From Lysinibacillus irui (GTDB taxonomy: Bacteria > Bacillota > Bacilli > Bacillales_A > Planococcaceae): a stretch of DNA of 64,000 nucleotides. The notes beneath the pieces are model-generated. The model searched no databases. It was not told the origin of the DNA and was given only the letters and a program-made list of their open reading frames with translations. Numbering within the stretch: position 1 is the first letter of the stretch; each line of letters opens with the position of its first letter. A program made the translations under genes and the position numbers. Below, one piece after another: positions 11,177 through 16,922 of the stretch. Location of the stretch: assembly GCF_028877475.1 (NCBI RefSeq), contig NZ_CP113527.1, positions 4,333,501 through 4,397,500 on the forward strand, written 5' to 3'.

Positions 11177-12367
11177 TTGGAACGTGTAATCGGTACAGTT
11201 GTAAGAGGTCTTCGTGGTCCTATTATTAACGAGGGCGATAATATTGAACAAATCGTTGTAGATACAGTGTTAAATGCTGCAAAAATTGAAGGATATGCAA
11301 TCGAGGATCGTGATATTGTCACAGTAACTGAGTCTGTCGTGGCACGTGCACAAGGTAACTATGCAACGATTGACGATATCGCAGTAGATGTAGCGGCAAA
11401 GTTCGGTGATGATACGGTAGGTGTTATTTTCCCAATTTTAAGTCGCAACCGCTTTGCAAACTGTTTACGTGGAATCGCAAAAGGTGTAAAAAAAGTTGTA
11501 TTAATGCTTAGCTACCCATCCGATGAAGTTGGTAATCACCTTGTAGATATTGATGAGCTTGATGTAAAAGGTATTAACCCATGGACGGATACACTAAATG
11601 AGGTTGAGTTCCGCGAGCATTTTGGCTATAAAAAACATACATTTACTGGTGTAGATTATATTGAATACTATAAAGAGTTAATTGAAGCGGAAGGGGCTTC
11701 CTGTGAGGTCATCTTCTCTAATAATCCAAAAACAATTTTAAATTATACAAAGAGTATTTTAACATGTGACATTCATACACGTTTCCGCACAAAACGTATT
11801 TTAACAGCGAATGGTGCAGAAAAAGTTTACAGCCTTGATAACATTTTAGCTGAATCTATTAACGGTTCTGGCTTCAATGCGGAGTATGGCCTTCTTGGCT
11901 CGAATAAAGCAACTGAGGATAGTGTGAAATTATTCCCACACACTTGCCAACCAATTGTTGACGGAATCCAAGCAAAAATTAAAGAAGCTACTGGCAAAAC
12001 TGTAGAGGTCATGATTTACGGTGATGGCGCATTTAAAGATCCAGTAGGCAAAATTTGGGAGCTTGCAGATCCTGTTGTTTCGCCAGCGTTCACAGCGGGA
12101 TTACATGGTACACCGAACGAAGTAAAATTAAAATACTTAGCAGACAATGATTTTGCGGACCTTCGAGGTGAGGAATTAAAAGCTGCTATTTCGGAATATA
12201 TTCAGAATAAAGATGAGGATTTAACTGGTCAAATGGCTGCACAAGGAACAACACCTCGTCGCTTAACTGACCTAATCGGTTCCCTATCTGATCTTACATC
12301 TGGTTCAGGTGATAAAGGAACACCTATGATATACATTCAAGGCTACTTTGATAATTACACTAAATAA
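11177..12367 (+). CDS. Coenzyme F420-0:L-glutamate ligase (CofE) family protein
   Basis: A 396-residue protein related to CofE, which adds glutamate to the deazaflavin cofactor F420-0 using GTP. It is longer than classical CofE (about 250 residues). Family-like segments include GTVVRGLRGPIINEGDNIEQIV, DIVTVTESVVARAQGNYATI, the central LLGSNKATEDSVKLFP and VMIYGDGAFKDPVGKIWELADP. The start is TTG with GAGGAG (11162-11167) at good spacing. Bacilli are not known to make F420 and no other F420 gene is in the window, so it may gamma-glutamylate another acceptor. It stands alone, divergent from a LysR gene, and ends at a strong terminator. Confidence 0.75.
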   Translation: MERVIGTVVRGLRGPIINEGDNIEQIVVDTVLNAAKIEGYAIEDRDIVTVTESVVARAQGNYATIDDIAVDVAAKFGDDTVGVIFPILSRNRFANCLRGIAKGVKKVVLMLSYPSDEVGNHLVDIDELDVKGINPWTDTLNEVEFREHFGYKKHTFTGVDYIEYYKELIEAEGASCEVIFSNNPKTILNYTKSILTCDIHTRFRTKRILTANGAEKVYSLDNILAESINGSGFNAEYGLLGSNKATEDSVKLFPHTCQPIVDGIQAKIKEATGKTVEVMIYGDGAFKDPVGKIWELADPVVSPAFTAGLHGTPNEVKLKYLADNDFADLRGEELKAAISEYIQNKDEDLTGQMAAQGTTPRRLTDLIGSLSDLTSGSGDKGTPMIYIQGYFDNYTK

Positions 12368-12369
12368 AC

Positions 12370-12407
12370 AAAAATGAACTCTCGTCCTAATGAAGAGAGT
12401 TCATTTT
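12370..12407. terminator. Bidirectional terminator
   Basis: Thirteen-base arms (12371-12383 and 12395-12407, core TGAACTCTC / GAGAGTTCA) with an 11-nt loop are flanked by A and T runs on both sides. It ends the CofE-family gene on the plus strand and can end the tRNA-like and RNA-repair transcript on the minus strand. Confidence 0.88.
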
Positions 12408-12413
12408 TATTTA

Positions 12414-12483
12414 TGATGAGGATGACAGGAATCGAACCTGTAATCTCTTTGAAAAGGGATATGCTATCCTTGCACACTTCCTC
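12414..12483 (-). tRNA. Degenerate tRNA or tRNA-like RNA gene
   Basis: Read on the minus strand this 70-nt stretch folds only imperfectly as a tRNA. The acceptor arms GAGGAAG/CATCCTC pair in 6 of 7 positions. The D arm is short (TGC/GCA around AAGGATA, keeping the GG). The anticodon stem ATCCC/GAGAT has one mismatch and an 8-nt loop TTTTCAAA (UUC or UUU would be read). The variable region is a single base. The T arm ACAGG-TTCGATT-CCTGT is perfect, and the 3' end is ATCA instead of CCA. It lies 94 nt downstream of the RNA ligase gene in the same orientation and before a terminator. It could be a tRNA pseudogene, or a tRNA-like small RNA such as tRNA-Other of Bacillus cereus. Confidence 0.5.
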
Positions 12484-12577
12484 ATAGTTTATAATTTTTG
12501 AAAGATTATTATAGTATTACATTTTTCTCAGTCCTTTTTATTGTATAATTCGTCACCTTAATTTCATTAGCTCCATT

Positions 12578-13213
12578 TTATTTTAAGCCATTAGGTATGA
12601 TTTCTTCTTGTAGCCAATGCTCACTTGTTTGAACATGCTGTGGTCTCACAAATTTCCCCAAATTATATCGAAAATCATCATAATGGAATGCGTCAATATT
12701 TCTAATGACATATCCCTCTTGTTCACCATCAAATATTGATTTACCAGTAAATGTACGTTTTATCTTTTCTTCATCAAAAATACCCCGATATAAAACAGGA
12801 ACCGTTTCAATACCTAATTCAGCCGCATATGCTACTGTTTCGTCCCAACTTAAACATATATTTTTTTCATTCCAAATACTAAATAAATAAAAATAACTTG
12901 TTAGTGCTTTATAATAAATGGAATGCTTCGCATACACATTTTCCCCGCATAATCGCCAATCATTCGGTATATGATAAGCAAAACTCGCATGAAATGTTTT
13001 TACCCAATGTCTAGAGGGATGATTAGCGGAATGGATGCTTCTAGCATGCATATAGTCTTTATATAGTGTTGTACCTTCCCCGTCTAACTTTTCAGTTACA
13101 ACAACCTCTTTCCCAACAAAATGATTTACATTTTTAGCAACCTTATCATCATGTGTGTAGCCTCTGCTCCATGGCAAATGAAAGCTTCTTGGATATTTCA
13201 TTAACTTCGTCAT
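12578..13213 (-). CDS. RNA ligase family protein (Rnl2-like nucleotidyltransferase)
   Basis: A 211-residue covalent nucleotidyltransferase that should seal RNA (or nicked) ends with ATP through a Lys-AMP intermediate. Motif I is EKLDGEG with nucleophile Lys42; a motif III-like CGENVYAKHS lies at 89-98; motif IV is EGYVIRN (166-172) and motif V is KFVR (187-190). It is little more than the catalytic domain, shorter than T4 Rnl2 (334 residues), with no C-terminal domain. It starts 24 nt after the kinase-HD gene with its own GGGAG, so the two are an operon of end-healing and sealing enzymes. Whether RNA or DNA is the physiological substrate cannot be read from sequence. Confidence 0.85.
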   Translation of the reverse strand: MTKLMKYPRSFHLPWSRGYTHDDKVAKNVNHFVGKEVVVTEKLDGEGTTLYKDYMHARSIHSANHPSRHWVKTFHASFAYHIPNDWRLCGENVYAKHSIYYKALTSYFYLFSIWNEKNICLSWDETVAYAAELGIETVPVLYRGIFDEEKIKRTFTGKSIFDGEQEGYVIRNIDAFHYDDFRYNLGKFVRPQHVQTSEHWLQEEIIPNGLK

Positions 13214-13237
13214 ATTTTCACTCCCTTTCCCTATTGT

Positions 13238-14194
13238 TTATTTGGCAAATTGATCTGCCTCACGGAAAAAATAAAGCCTTGTTAATAAATCACCATCTAA
13301 TAAGTGATAAATTTGGCTTCCTCCTCGATCGCCCCCATACTGGATTAACATATGAAATTGCACTAAATGAACAACCTTTAACACAAAGTCCTTTTCAAAG
13401 CCTAACTCTAATAGAAAATGGCACACCAGTTGAGCAGATACGTTTTCATGTCCAAAATAGCCATAGCGTTGTTGTAATGGTTTATATTTTTTGCAAAATG
13501 GTTTACCGACATCATGAAACAATGCAGCTATTTGTAGAGCTAGTTTATCGCTTTCTAAATAATACTCATTGATATACGCATACACAAAATACGTATGCTG
13601 ACATAATAAAAATTGATGGAATGAGTTTTCTTGATCGAATTGATAAATTTCTTTAAAAAGTGGAACTGATCGAAGTGTTTGAAAAAGTTCTTCATAAGTG
13701 GGCTGGCTTTGTAAGAGTGAAATAAATTGTTGTTGAGAAATATCATAAGGACCTGATTCATGTACAATATGCACTTCATCAAAACCTTCTCCTACTGTCG
13801 GGAATTCTAAATACTTTCTCATTTTCTCCATTACCATTAATGGGACATGCCGTTTCCGTTGCTGGTTTCTTTCTACACAGGTTACATAAGGTGTATCAAA
13901 ATAATAACACTCCTTTTTAAAGGTACTTGGTAACTTTCGTAATGCAAATATCCTGCGCTCCCGTTCAATATTGGTTGCATCCACAATGACAGAAAACCCT
14001 TTTGCCACTAAGTTATTAAGACGCTCATATAATGTACGAAAGACCACACGCGATTTCTGCTTAGTTGCGTCACCAAACAATTCATCCCGTATAGCGTCAC
14101 TAGATAGGATAACCGCATTTTCTCTTTTCGCTAGCTCTTTTACAAATGTACTTTTTCCACTACCAGGCAACCCCACTGTAAAGATCACCTTCAT
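13238..14194 (-). CDS. Polynucleotide kinase-HD phosphohydrolase fusion (RNA end healing)
   Basis: A 318-residue two-domain protein. Residues 1-150 form a P-loop kinase like T4 Pnkp: Walker A GLPGSGKST (8-16), the SSDAIRDE segment with catalytic Asp33, and an Arg-rich lid RNQQRKRH. Residues 170-318 carry an HD domain (FLLCQHTYFVYAY, LFHDVGKP with His227-Asp228, GHENVSAQ). Such a pair could phosphorylate 5'-OH ends and remove a 2',3'-cyclic or 3' phosphate, preparing ends for the adjacent RNA ligase. In the characterised HD-Pnk enzyme of Runella the domains are in the opposite order. The ATG at 14194 (GGGAGG, 8 nt) is preferred over an in-frame GTG at 14203. Confidence 0.82.
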   Translation of the reverse strand: MKVIFTVGLPGSGKSTFVKELAKRENAVILSSDAIRDELFGDATKQKSRVVFRTLYERLNNLVAKGFSVIVDATNIERERRIFALRKLPSTFKKECYYFDTPYVTCVERNQQRKRHVPLMVMEKMRKYLEFPTVGEGFDEVHIVHESGPYDISQQQFISLLQSQPTYEELFQTLRSVPLFKEIYQFDQENSFHQFLLCQHTYFVYAYINEYYLESDKLALQIAALFHDVGKPFCKKYKPLQQRYGYFGHENVSAQLVCHFLLELGFEKDFVLKVVHLVQFHMLIQYGGDRGGSQIYHLLDGDLLTRLYFFREADQFAK

Positions 14195-14314
14195 TATTTT
14201 CACCTCCCTTCAAGTTTTTATATCGTGTAATGTGGCGTCATCTTTAGTATATCGCCTATCATTTCTAATAAAAATTTATGGTCATCAGTCATAATATGAT
14301 GCAATTTTACATAT

Positions 14315-14618: not shown

Positions 14619-16922
14619 TTGGAAAATCAAAAAGAATGGCTAGAAGAAAAGCTTTATCTTGAGGATTCTTTAAACCTCATTCATCACAAAATAAAAGAAA
14701 TACAGCTAAAAGAGAAAGGCTTCAAAGAAAATGCTGTCGCCTTAAAGAAAACGTTTTGGAATGACGTCAGGGTTAATTTAGATACGGCTGAGGATGTCGA
14801 TGAAACTTTTTTTGCCATTAAGCAACAGGTAGAGCTTTTATCTGACTCAGAGCTTGCACAACAACGTGCGATTCGAAATGTGAAGGTCTATGAACGTTTA
14901 CAACAATCACCCTATTTTGCTCGTATTGACTTTTTACAAAATGGGGAAAAAGATCCCTTAAAAATTTATATAGGTGTTGCTACATTATTGGATGAACAGG
15001 ATGAAAATATAATCATATATGACTGGCGAGCGCCTATCTCAAGTATGTATTATGATTACACACCTGGCGATGCATCCTACGAAACATTAGGTGAAGAAAT
15101 TCATGGAGAAATGTTATTAAAAAGACAATTTATTATTAAAAATGGCCAACTACAATCGATGTTTAATACAGGCCTTACAATTGGCGATGATTTATTGCTA
15201 GATATTCTTGCCCAAAATGCAAACGAGCATATTCGTAGTATCGTTGCAACGATTCAAGCTGAACAAAATAAAATTATTCGACATGTAAACTCCCGATACC
15301 TCATCGTCGAAGGTGTTGCTGGTAGTGGTAAAACTGCGGTGGCCTTACAGAGGGTCGCCTATCTATTGTATCGTTATCGCAATGAAATGACTGCCGATCA
15401 AATATTACTAATAACGCCTAATCAACTTTTCAATCAATATGTCCATACGGTCTTACCCGATTTAGGTGAAGACAATATGCAACAATTAACTTTTATAGAG
15501 TATGTGGAAAAACGATTAGGTCGTCAATTCCAATTGGAATACCCTTATGAGCAACTAGAAGATCTTTTAACAGAAAAGGATGACGCTCATTATGAAACTA
15601 AATTAAGTATTATTTCATATAAAGCGAGCCTTGATTTCAAAGATTTAATGGATCACTATGTAAGCTATTTATCGAATAAGGGCTTATTATTTAAAAATAT
15701 TGTATTTCGTGGGGAACGTATTATTACTGCACAGGAAATTTCGGAATACTTCTATTCCTTCCCTTCCTCTATATCGATACCGGATCGCCTACAATTCGTG
15801 AAAGAGTGGTTATTACAGCAACTAACGAAATTTGAAAGAGCTGAGCGTACAAAGGAATGGGTAGAAGAAGCAACTGAACTTTTAGATAAAGAAGACTACT
15901 CTAAGTCTTACAGTGAGCTTTTATATGAGGGAAGCTATACAGAAAACTCCTTCGATGATTTTGATCAAGAACGCCAAAAATTAGCGAGACAAATTGTTAA
16001 AAAACACTTTAAACCGTTACGTAATTCTGTTACCAAGTTAAAGTTTGTTCATATTTTAGGTATATATCGCCAACTCTTTGATCAAAATAGCCCTTTTTAC
16101 AAAGCTTTACAGCATCTTATGCCCGATCATTGGGAAGATATTTGCCAACACACACATACTAATTTAACAAAACGCCTTATTGCCTATGAGGACGCCGCTC
16201 CATTTTTATATTTACAGGACAAAATTGAAGGGCAACAGACAAATACGATGATCCGTCATGTTTTAATTGATGAAGCACAGGACTATTCACCATTCCAACT
16301 CACAGTATTACAGCAACTATTTCCAAAAGCTCGAATGACCATCTTAGGGGATGGACACCAAACGATTCACCCTCATACCTTTGAGAATCCTTCACTACTT
16401 GACCCTGAATTATATGGTGGGCAGGCCGAAAAAATGATTTTAACCAAAAGCTATCGTTCGACAAAGCAAATCATTTCACTCACTTCCAATATTTTAAATG
16501 ATGGTAGTGAAGTAGAGGCTTTTAACCGCAATGGTCCTGAACCTTCAATTACCATTGTGCCAAATGAATTAGAGTTAGTTGATCGAATTATCCAGAACAT
16601 CAATAATCTTTCTACCAAATTTGAAACAATTGCAGTCATTTGTAAAACTACAGCTGAATGCTCTGCTGTATACGAACAATTAAGAAACCAAATAGATATT
16701 CAACTCATTACTCACAGCACTAAGCAATTTAAAAAGGGTATTTTATTACTTCCAGCGTATATGGCGAAAGGAATTGAGTTTGACGCTGTCATTATCTATA
16801 ATGCGTCTGCCGCTAATTATTCAAGAGAAAGTGAACGGTACTATTTCTATACAGCCTGTACGAGAGCTATGCATGAGTTGTTCATCTATTCCATTAATAA
16901 AGTAACTTCTTTCCTTCAATAA
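14619..16922 (+). CDS. helD: RNA polymerase recycling motor HelD
   Basis: A 767-residue UvrD-like ATPase of the HelD family, which removes stalled RNA polymerase from DNA and recycles it. An N-terminal antiparallel coiled coil (about 1-70), which reaches into the secondary channel in Bacillus HelD, precedes the helicase domains. Motif I is EGVAGSGKTAVALQRVAYLL, motif II is LIDEAQDYSPFQL, with GDGHQTIHP, LTKSYRSTKQI and FYTACTRAMHELFIYS later. Length matches B. subtilis HelD (774). The only start is TTG, since a stop lies just upstream; GGAGAGG lies about 14 nt before it, a long spacing. It is monocistronic. Confidence 0.92.
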   Translation: MENQKEWLEEKLYLEDSLNLIHHKIKEIQLKEKGFKENAVALKKTFWNDVRVNLDTAEDVDETFFAIKQQVELLSDSELAQQRAIRNVKVYERLQQSPYFARIDFLQNGEKDPLKIYIGVATLLDEQDENIIIYDWRAPISSMYYDYTPGDASYETLGEEIHGEMLLKRQFIIKNGQLQSMFNTGLTIGDDLLLDILAQNANEHIRSIVATIQAEQNKIIRHVNSRYLIVEGVAGSGKTAVALQRVAYLLYRYRNEMTADQILLITPNQLFNQYVHTVLPDLGEDNMQQLTFIEYVEKRLGRQFQLEYPYEQLEDLLTEKDDAHYETKLSIISYKASLDFKDLMDHYVSYLSNKGLLFKNIVFRGERIITAQEISEYFYSFPSSISIPDRLQFVKEWLLQQLTKFERAERTKEWVEEATELLDKEDYSKSYSELLYEGSYTENSFDDFDQERQKLARQIVKKHFKPLRNSVTKLKFVHILGIYRQLFDQNSPFYKALQHLMPDHWEDICQHTHTNLTKRLIAYEDAAPFLYLQDKIEGQQTNTMIRHVLIDEAQDYSPFQLTVLQQLFPKARMTILGDGHQTIHPHTFENPSLLDPELYGGQAEKMILTKSYRSTKQIISLTSNILNDGSEVEAFNRNGPEPSITIVPNELELVDRIIQNINNLSTKFETIAVICKTTAECSAVYEQLRNQIDIQLITHSTKQFKKGILLLPAYMAKGIEFDAVIIYNASAANYSRESERYYFYTACTRAMHELFIYSINKVTSFLQ

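Follow-up and report, generated by a model that had tools for sequence, protein, structure and literature searches.

The stretch of DNA examined here, a 64,000-nt window of Lysinibacillus irui (contig NZ_CP113527.1, forward-strand positions 4,333,501 to 4,397,500), carries on its minus strand a short operon in which a gene for a fused polynucleotide kinase and HD-domain protein (Pnk-HD) is followed by an RNA ligase gene, a start-stop element, a tRNA-like RNA and an intrinsic terminator (Table 1). The kinase stop and the ligase start are 24 nt apart, and an alternative GTG-started kinase frame extends to 14203. An initial annotation had placed the kinase-HD gene, the ligase gene, the tRNA-like sequence and the terminator in succession on this strand, a layout that our analysis confirmed. 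Between the ligase and the tRNA-like RNA lies AAAAAGGACTGAGAAAAATGTAAT, in which a Shine-Dalgarno (SD) sequence, ATG and TAA follow in that order; this conserved element, which the initial annotation did not contain, is the most informative new fact about the locus. The reading that we favour, and consider about an even call, is that of a predicted RNA end-healing and sealing operon with a selected noncoding 3′ module that acts on or with its own operon and not in decoding.

Table 1 Features of the operon and its flanks (positions within the window)
Feature	Position	Strand	Basis or detail
Pnk-HD gene, 318 aa	13238..14194	-	Pfam AAA_33 + HD; ATG at 14194
RNA ligase gene, 211 aa, nucleotidyltransferase domain alone	12578..13213	-	PF09414
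Start-stop element	12516..12539	-	Shine-Dalgarno AAAAAGGA 12539-12532, ATG 12522-12520, TAA 12519-12517
tRNA-like RNA; acceptor, D and T arms retained, variable hairpin for anticodon arm	12417..12483	-	Rfam RF00005, covariance model R1
Symmetrical intrinsic terminator common to operon and convergent gene 11177-12367	12370..12409	.	Sequence by eye
Tentative sigma-D-like promoter pattern TAAA-N15-CACGATAT, 5′ of kinase gene	14220..14246	-	
F420-0 gamma-glutamyl ligase-like gene, convergent flank	11177-12367	+	PF01996
HelD gene, divergent flank	14619-16922		

The Pnk-HD protein is encoded by one open reading frame (ORF) with Pfam matches to AAA_33 (residues 6-135, E 8.9e-27) and HD (residues 203-285, E 1.1e-6). 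In an alignment of 15 sequences (A10, the window plus 14 relatives of 42% identity or more), the kinase P-loop from G8 to S15, D33, R36 and R113/K114/R115 are invariant, as are H200, H227/D228, H249, H281 and D314 of the HD part, and the same residues are invariant or nearly so in a second alignment of 18 sequences (A1). The kinase domain is related by sequence to the structures of PSTK, Pnkp-type enzymes and T4 Pnk, and has the P-loop and catalytic Asp of a 5′-OH kinase; the HD domain conserves the predicted metal ligands of a putative 3′-end phosphoesterase. The ligase matches PF09414 (E 1.6e-34), and its K42, D44, G45, R58, E91, E166, G167 and K187, which comprise the motif of a covalent nucleotidyltransferase, are invariant in the window protein and in 18 relatives with identities as low as 48% (A9), a set that includes Verrucomicrobiales, Pleionea, Ardenticatenales and Clostridia. 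It has no relative by sequence in the PDB at E 0.01. To our knowledge, the natural substrates and partners of minimal bacterial RNA ligases have not been established, and the catalytic roles given here to the kinase, HD and ligase motif residues are those that we presume for such motifs. The initial annotation had named loss of catalytic residues in relatives as evidence that would count against it; the predicted residues of all three activities are conserved.

Kinase and ligase genes also travel together, as the initial annotation had proposed to check. Here and below, "genus" and "family" denote groups set by the search tool, which do not always correspond to NCBI names; the neighbouring-genus loci include an NCBI-named Lysinibacillus odysseyi (L057, identical in sequence to L034). 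Kinase matches with E-values of at most 0.001 came from 22 of 32 genus genomes, 17 of which have open kinase and ligase frames (L001-L017); in L018 both genes are broken, and the operons of four further genomes (G019, G022, G023 and G030) are decayed.

The order of the two domains is the reverse of that in the characterised HD-Pnk family, just as the initial annotation had stated, because the Deinococcus radiodurans cluster runs HD (48-173) then kinase (266-394); the window protein is thus no member of a family defined by an N-terminal HD and a C-terminal kinase in a single chain. Runella also has an HD-Pnk family member. The D. radiodurans cluster DRB0098-DRB0100 is similar in that its ligase is 48% identical to the one described here, consists of a single nucleotidyltransferase domain and lies near a kinase-HD protein; apart from domain order, it differs in an intervening TIGR02452 gene (called macro-like in PMC1997131) that has no counterpart here. 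The D. radiodurans locus gave no Rfam match at the gathering score.

To characterise the start-stop element, we used 82 ligase loci with 58 distinct downstream sequences; many of the loci are closely related, so the counts are not independent. ATGTAA occurs within 140 nt downstream in 46 of the 58 sequences. In 45 of them it is accompanied by an SD duplex no weaker than −5.6 kcal/mol; the exception (L072) has an SD of −1.1 and lies, by eye, inside a coding frame. Among single-base shuffles, 9.5% contained ATGTAA and 1.3% contained it together with an SD of −5 or below. In every one of the 44 distinct sequences in which the SD pattern precedes a start-stop pair, that pair is ATG-TAA; the pattern is missing in 14. 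Within the genus the element is 94.9% identical, a value in which 6 of 22 positions are bound to match since ATGTAA served as the anchor. It is present in loci of the window's genus, Metasolibacillus, Brevibacillus, Saccharibacillus and Gottfriedia, and absent from L036, Aneurinibacillus (L054, L122), two Brevibacillus-group genomes (L134, L136), the fragment L139, Clostridia (L074-L076) and the non-Bacillota loci L070, L071 and L078. The pattern RAARGGANTGAGNNNNATGTAAT was found in 16 of 398 Bacilli genomes, always at the ligase, which amounts to 16 of the 22 genomes with a ligase; read backwards, it had no match in the 398. A narrower pattern matched 9 of 261 family genomes, one of which (G067) retains only the tail of the ligase. 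In decayed genus loci the start-stop is lost or altered.

Judged by its sequence, the element has the make-up of a start-stop ORF, with an SD at functional spacing and an AUG followed at once by a stop. Start-stop sites have been seen in bacterial ribosome profiling (PMC11955535), and start-stop upstream ORFs are known in eukaryotes (PMC5972666). The sites described for Escherichia coli and Campylobacter jejuni are alike in that the stop comes immediately or within one codon of initiation; the 18 putative C. jejuni sites are internal and out of frame (PMC11955535), whereas the element described here sits in the intergenic stretch 3′ of the ligase and is conserved in several genera. A promoter reading of the conserved block was rejected: the spacing of SD and ATG fits translation initiation, the block occurs in L031-L033, which have no tRNA-like RNA, and the exact patterns match only the ligase locus or its remains.

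The tRNA-like RNA of the window scores 34.3 bits against the Rfam tRNA model (gathering score 29) and is the sole Rfam match at gathering score in the window; ARAGORN called no tRNA at this copy. A tRNA-like RNA lies 3′ of the ligase in 17 of 17 genus genomes in which both genes are open and is also kept in L018 despite frameshifts in both genes, giving 18 of 18 (L001-L018), although only four of these (L001, the window itself, L007, L008 and L015) pass the Rfam tRNA threshold and 14 fall below it. With R1, a covariance model built from the 18 genus copies, 20 of 261 family genomes scored at least 61.8 bits, every one of them with the operon or its remains; G019 scored 47.8 bits, and the next matches lay at 44.7-49.0 bits, where all nine loci checked proved to be ordinary tRNA-Gly(GCC) genes. 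Under stricter R1 filters, no high-scoring copy turned up in any of the 10 genus genomes that lack a kinase match (four had no R1 match, six had best E-values of 9.9e-5 to 0.0076; one genome is 86% complete). Among the decayed loci, the copy is altered in L019, L020 and L022 and truncated, with no match, in L021; the three decayed copies score below all 18, a comparison that is biased because decayed copies are absent from R1. On 15 genomes with more distant operons R1 gave 24.7-43.3 bits, and in the two compared (G272, G273) these matches fall outside the operon sites of the ligase contigs. The streptococcal tRNA-like small RNA SpF41 was rejected as a relative, as it scored 24 bits in the window region against a threshold of 52; it was above cut-off in one of 299 genomes, at a 3.1-kb locus with an enolase-like frame upstream (by eye) and no ligase-like frame.

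We then compared substitution across the parts of this RNA, using pairs among L001-L017 with fourfold-degenerate ligase sites at most 90% identical and an R1-fitted alignment in which gaps counted as differences. The acceptor stem (92.4%) and T arm (96.4%) are far more conserved than fourfold-degenerate ligase sites (51.3%); the D arm stands at 70.9%, the anticodon stem at 78.8%, the anticodon loop at 44.5% and the whole ligase DNA at 83.7%. From the constrained acceptor and T arms and the unconstrained anticodon loop it follows that the tRNA-like RNA is selected, keeps the acceptor, elbow and T half of a tRNA, and is non-decoding. The expectation of the initial annotation that the RNA-like segment would be conserved beside the enzymes was therefore borne out inside the window's genus. 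When 54 tRNAs were compared pairwise with the mimic, the closest possible parents were Val, Lys and (for L007) Pro. Their best identities, 0.72-0.75, fall below what real tRNAs score against other isotypes; among ordinary tRNAs, the covariance model pointed to Gly(GCC) instead. By eye, CCCU of the mimic could pair with the SD, but no covariation was seen by eye in this putative pairing.

What follows the start-stop differs between lineages. Two of four Gottfriedia-group operons (L067 and L068, 33.1 and 45.7 bits) carry another tRNA-like RNA, whose nearest match among the 16 tRNAs compared is tRNA-Trp, with a 16-nt identical run in the D arm and, by eye, a small AU loop instead of the anticodon; the L068 fold is no better than shuffles (z 0.35), and a tRNA-like RNA was not found in the other two operons (G268, G270). 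Since this second lineage has a different tRNA-derived RNA, tRNA mimics seem to have entered repair operons on more than one occasion. In 10 loci of the Brevibacillus type, a hairpin shows 9 double-change cells against 3.0 in shuffles, a covariation score reached by 0 of 500 shuffles, and 92.6% of cells paired against 28-49% in slid controls. A covarying hairpin with a conserved internal loop was seen 3′ of the ligase in L055, L056, L058, L060 and L138, with no Rfam match at gathering score in L055, L056 and L058, and is a candidate new RNA family of Brevibacillus and one related genus. In the neighbouring genus, a terminator-like hairpin is all that was seen in L032 and, by eye, in L033, and L031 has nothing obvious. 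Given these differences in 3′ content, the tRNA mimic is best described as a lineage module, and the start-stop, by its sequence distribution, is the general part among Bacillales relatives, whatever follows it. The implied role of the tRNA-like RNA as a general part of the system has accordingly to be narrowed to one lineage, with SD-AUG-UAA as the general part in these Bacillales.

The strongly preserved tail suggests that the repair enzymes and the RNA work together. In the end-healing and sealing reading, the HD domain would remove the 2′,3′-cyclic phosphate, Pnk would phosphorylate the 5′-OH and the ligase would seal the broken RNA, most likely tRNA. The 3′ module would be transcribed as part of the operon mRNA, ahead of the terminator; a tRNA-binding protein, which might be one of the repair enzymes, a tRNA nuclease or RNase P, may recognise the acceptor/T half of the mimic, and ribosomes cycling on the start-stop may fix or protect the end of the upstream mRNA. 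The module would most likely tune repair capacity or serve as a non-cleavable ligand. A tRNA mimic is tied by selection to a minimal RNA ligase in one genus, without a Ro60 gene (20 genomes), and the conserved AUG-UAA offers a compact, testable link of translation to RNA repair.

Several observations weigh against this reading. The nearest studied ligase, DRB0100, adenylates at the conserved lysine and failed to seal any DNA or RNA tested in vitro (PMC1997131), so sealing by the present ligase is a prediction and the "self-contained heal-and-seal system" of the initial annotation is unproven as worded. Six Pnk-HD relatives of about 30% identity from other family genera (L037-L042) have no ligase match inside their loci. 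Folding of the window copy is only modestly better than shuffles (z −2.06; −0.88 for L016), and covariation in the genus is weak, with 87.9% of cells paired against 87.2% in shuffles, 18 of 500 of which were as high, because the copies differ little; slid control structures paired 40-55% of cells, and one of the acceptor pairs fails to form in 19 of 20 distinct rows. The RNA and the start-stop can outlast the enzymes: the L018 copy scores 82.4 bits with R1 though both enzyme genes are broken, and an intact start-stop persists in the relics L116, L138 and L146, where genes are broken or missing. Conversely, no tRNA-like RNA was found in L031-L035 of neighbouring genera, in which both enzymes are open over the matched stretch, nor in L036, where the genes are damaged, and Brevibacillus, Aneurinibacillus and Saccharibacillus loci gave no tRNA-like match. 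Because neighbouring genera keep the enzymes and the start-stop without it, the mimic is dispensable in related systems. Absence of the RNA where the enzymes are kept had been named beforehand as a refutation; it is half borne out, as the RNA is universal in the genus and missing in L031-L035.

A bolder version of the favoured reading, which we think distinctly unlikely, would make the 3′ tail an inbuilt sensor of damage that also serves the repair enzymes as a ligand. The tail would display targets of ribotoxins, namely a start-codon ribosome whose A site holds a stop, and the upper half of a tRNA, and its cutting or titration would alter the life of the operon mRNA or activate an otherwise inactive ligase. 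If true, this would also explain why DRB0100 sealed no oligonucleotides in vitro.

The main rival, to which we give a smaller but substantial share of belief, is a purely cis role in mRNA stability. Here the module would be a 3′ untranslated stabiliser in which the start-stop ribosome blocks 5′-3′ exonuclease and the structured RNA blocks 3′-5′ decay or offers an RNase P site, the tRNA shape being a convenient processed end; the ribosome-binding stab-SD of Bacillus cryIIIA is a comparable stabiliser. No part is more widespread than the start-stop, which lies 3′ of the ligase in the loci examined, and the 3′ content is exchangeable (tRNA-like, hairpin or neither), all of which a stabiliser would accommodate, but a near-invariant T arm and acceptor stem, and two different tRNA-like RNAs in two lineages, exceed what a stabiliser needs. 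It is unlikely, though worth weighing, that the conserved block is instead an RNA- or DNA-protein recognition site containing AUGUAA. The lack of any alternative start or stop in the 44 sequences, the confinement of the exact patterns to the ligase locus or its remains (261 and 398 genomes) and the intact block in the three relic loci are what such a site would produce; however, SD strength and spacing suit translation initiation in all clades that have the element, and Saccharibacillus L064 alters the spacer and retains the SD and ATGTAA.

That a tRNA pseudogene drifted into the operon and is hitchhiking is very improbable: the top ordinary tRNAs by R1 are tRNA-Gly(GCC) at 9 of 9 loci checked, which makes descent from a tRNA plausible, and covariation is weak, but conservation is arm-specific and far above that of neutral sites. 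Least probable of all is a decoding tRNA with an odd anticodon, since, for all its four Rfam tRNA matches among the 18 genus loci, the RNA lacks a 7-nt anticodon loop and a constant anticodon (by eye, loops in the replacing hairpin range from ~4 to 15 nt and share no triplet, and few copies are followed by CCA), the loop evolves at the neutral rate, and ARAGORN calls none in the window and 2 of 10 named high-R1 loci, with differing readings.

Among known systems, the parallel that the initial annotation drew to Rtc operons and Y RNAs with a tRNA-like domain is real (PMC7790460). The Salmonella Rsr-YrlBA-RtcBA system likewise combines repair genes with a noncoding RNA that has a tRNA-like domain (PMC7790460); here, the RNA is 3′ of the ligase, behind the start-stop. 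The tRNA-like fold expected of a Y RNA is present, with modest folding support, and a Ro60/TROVE gene was found in 0 of 20 genomes by a search that was positive in 1 of 14 controls (Deinobacterium). RtcB and RtcA are absent from the operon, as the same-strand genes between the flanks are those for Pnk-HD and the PF09414 ligase; the rest of the genome was not searched for RtcB. We take the ligase family to be unrelated to RtcB. T4 Pnkp/Rnl1 has the same three predicted activities, and its kinase is matched by sequence; the phosphoesterase here is instead an HD domain and the ligase is minimal, at 211 aa. Among the titles and abstract openings that searches of open-licence literature listed, none described a Pnk-HD/ligase operon with a tRNA-like RNA or start-stop. 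A defence-system label was rejected, as PADLOC gave weak P-loop/HD matches to the kinase only and none to the ligase.

Ligase relatives also occur in 32 phage records (24 of the 25 records listed have lengths of 235-735 kb) and in 61 plasmid records, the D. radiodurans cluster included. In L070 (Verrucomicrobiales) and L071 (Pleionea) the ligase has a kinase-like stretch on its 3′ side, and the frame immediately after the ligase is HD-like by eye, an arrangement that suggests separate genes and domain shuffling.

At the edges of the operon, the terminator consists, by eye, of the inverted repeat AATGAACTCTC/GAGAGTTCATT followed by T, and its 11-nt loop is beyond the range of the terminator scan used. 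That scan found a further minus-strand hairpin at 14348-14320, between HelD and the kinase start; it recurs in only some relatives, and an attenuator 5′ of the kinase gene is not claimed. A Bacillaceae-1 RNA (RF01690) lies near the kinase gene in L014 (2689-2750) and L017 (2692-2757). The sigma-D-like pattern TAAA-N14-16-NNCGATAT, which follows what we take to be the sigma-D consensus, occurs in 12 of 17 genus operons (a raw count with no shuffled control), and such a promoter would link RNA repair to the motility sigma factor.

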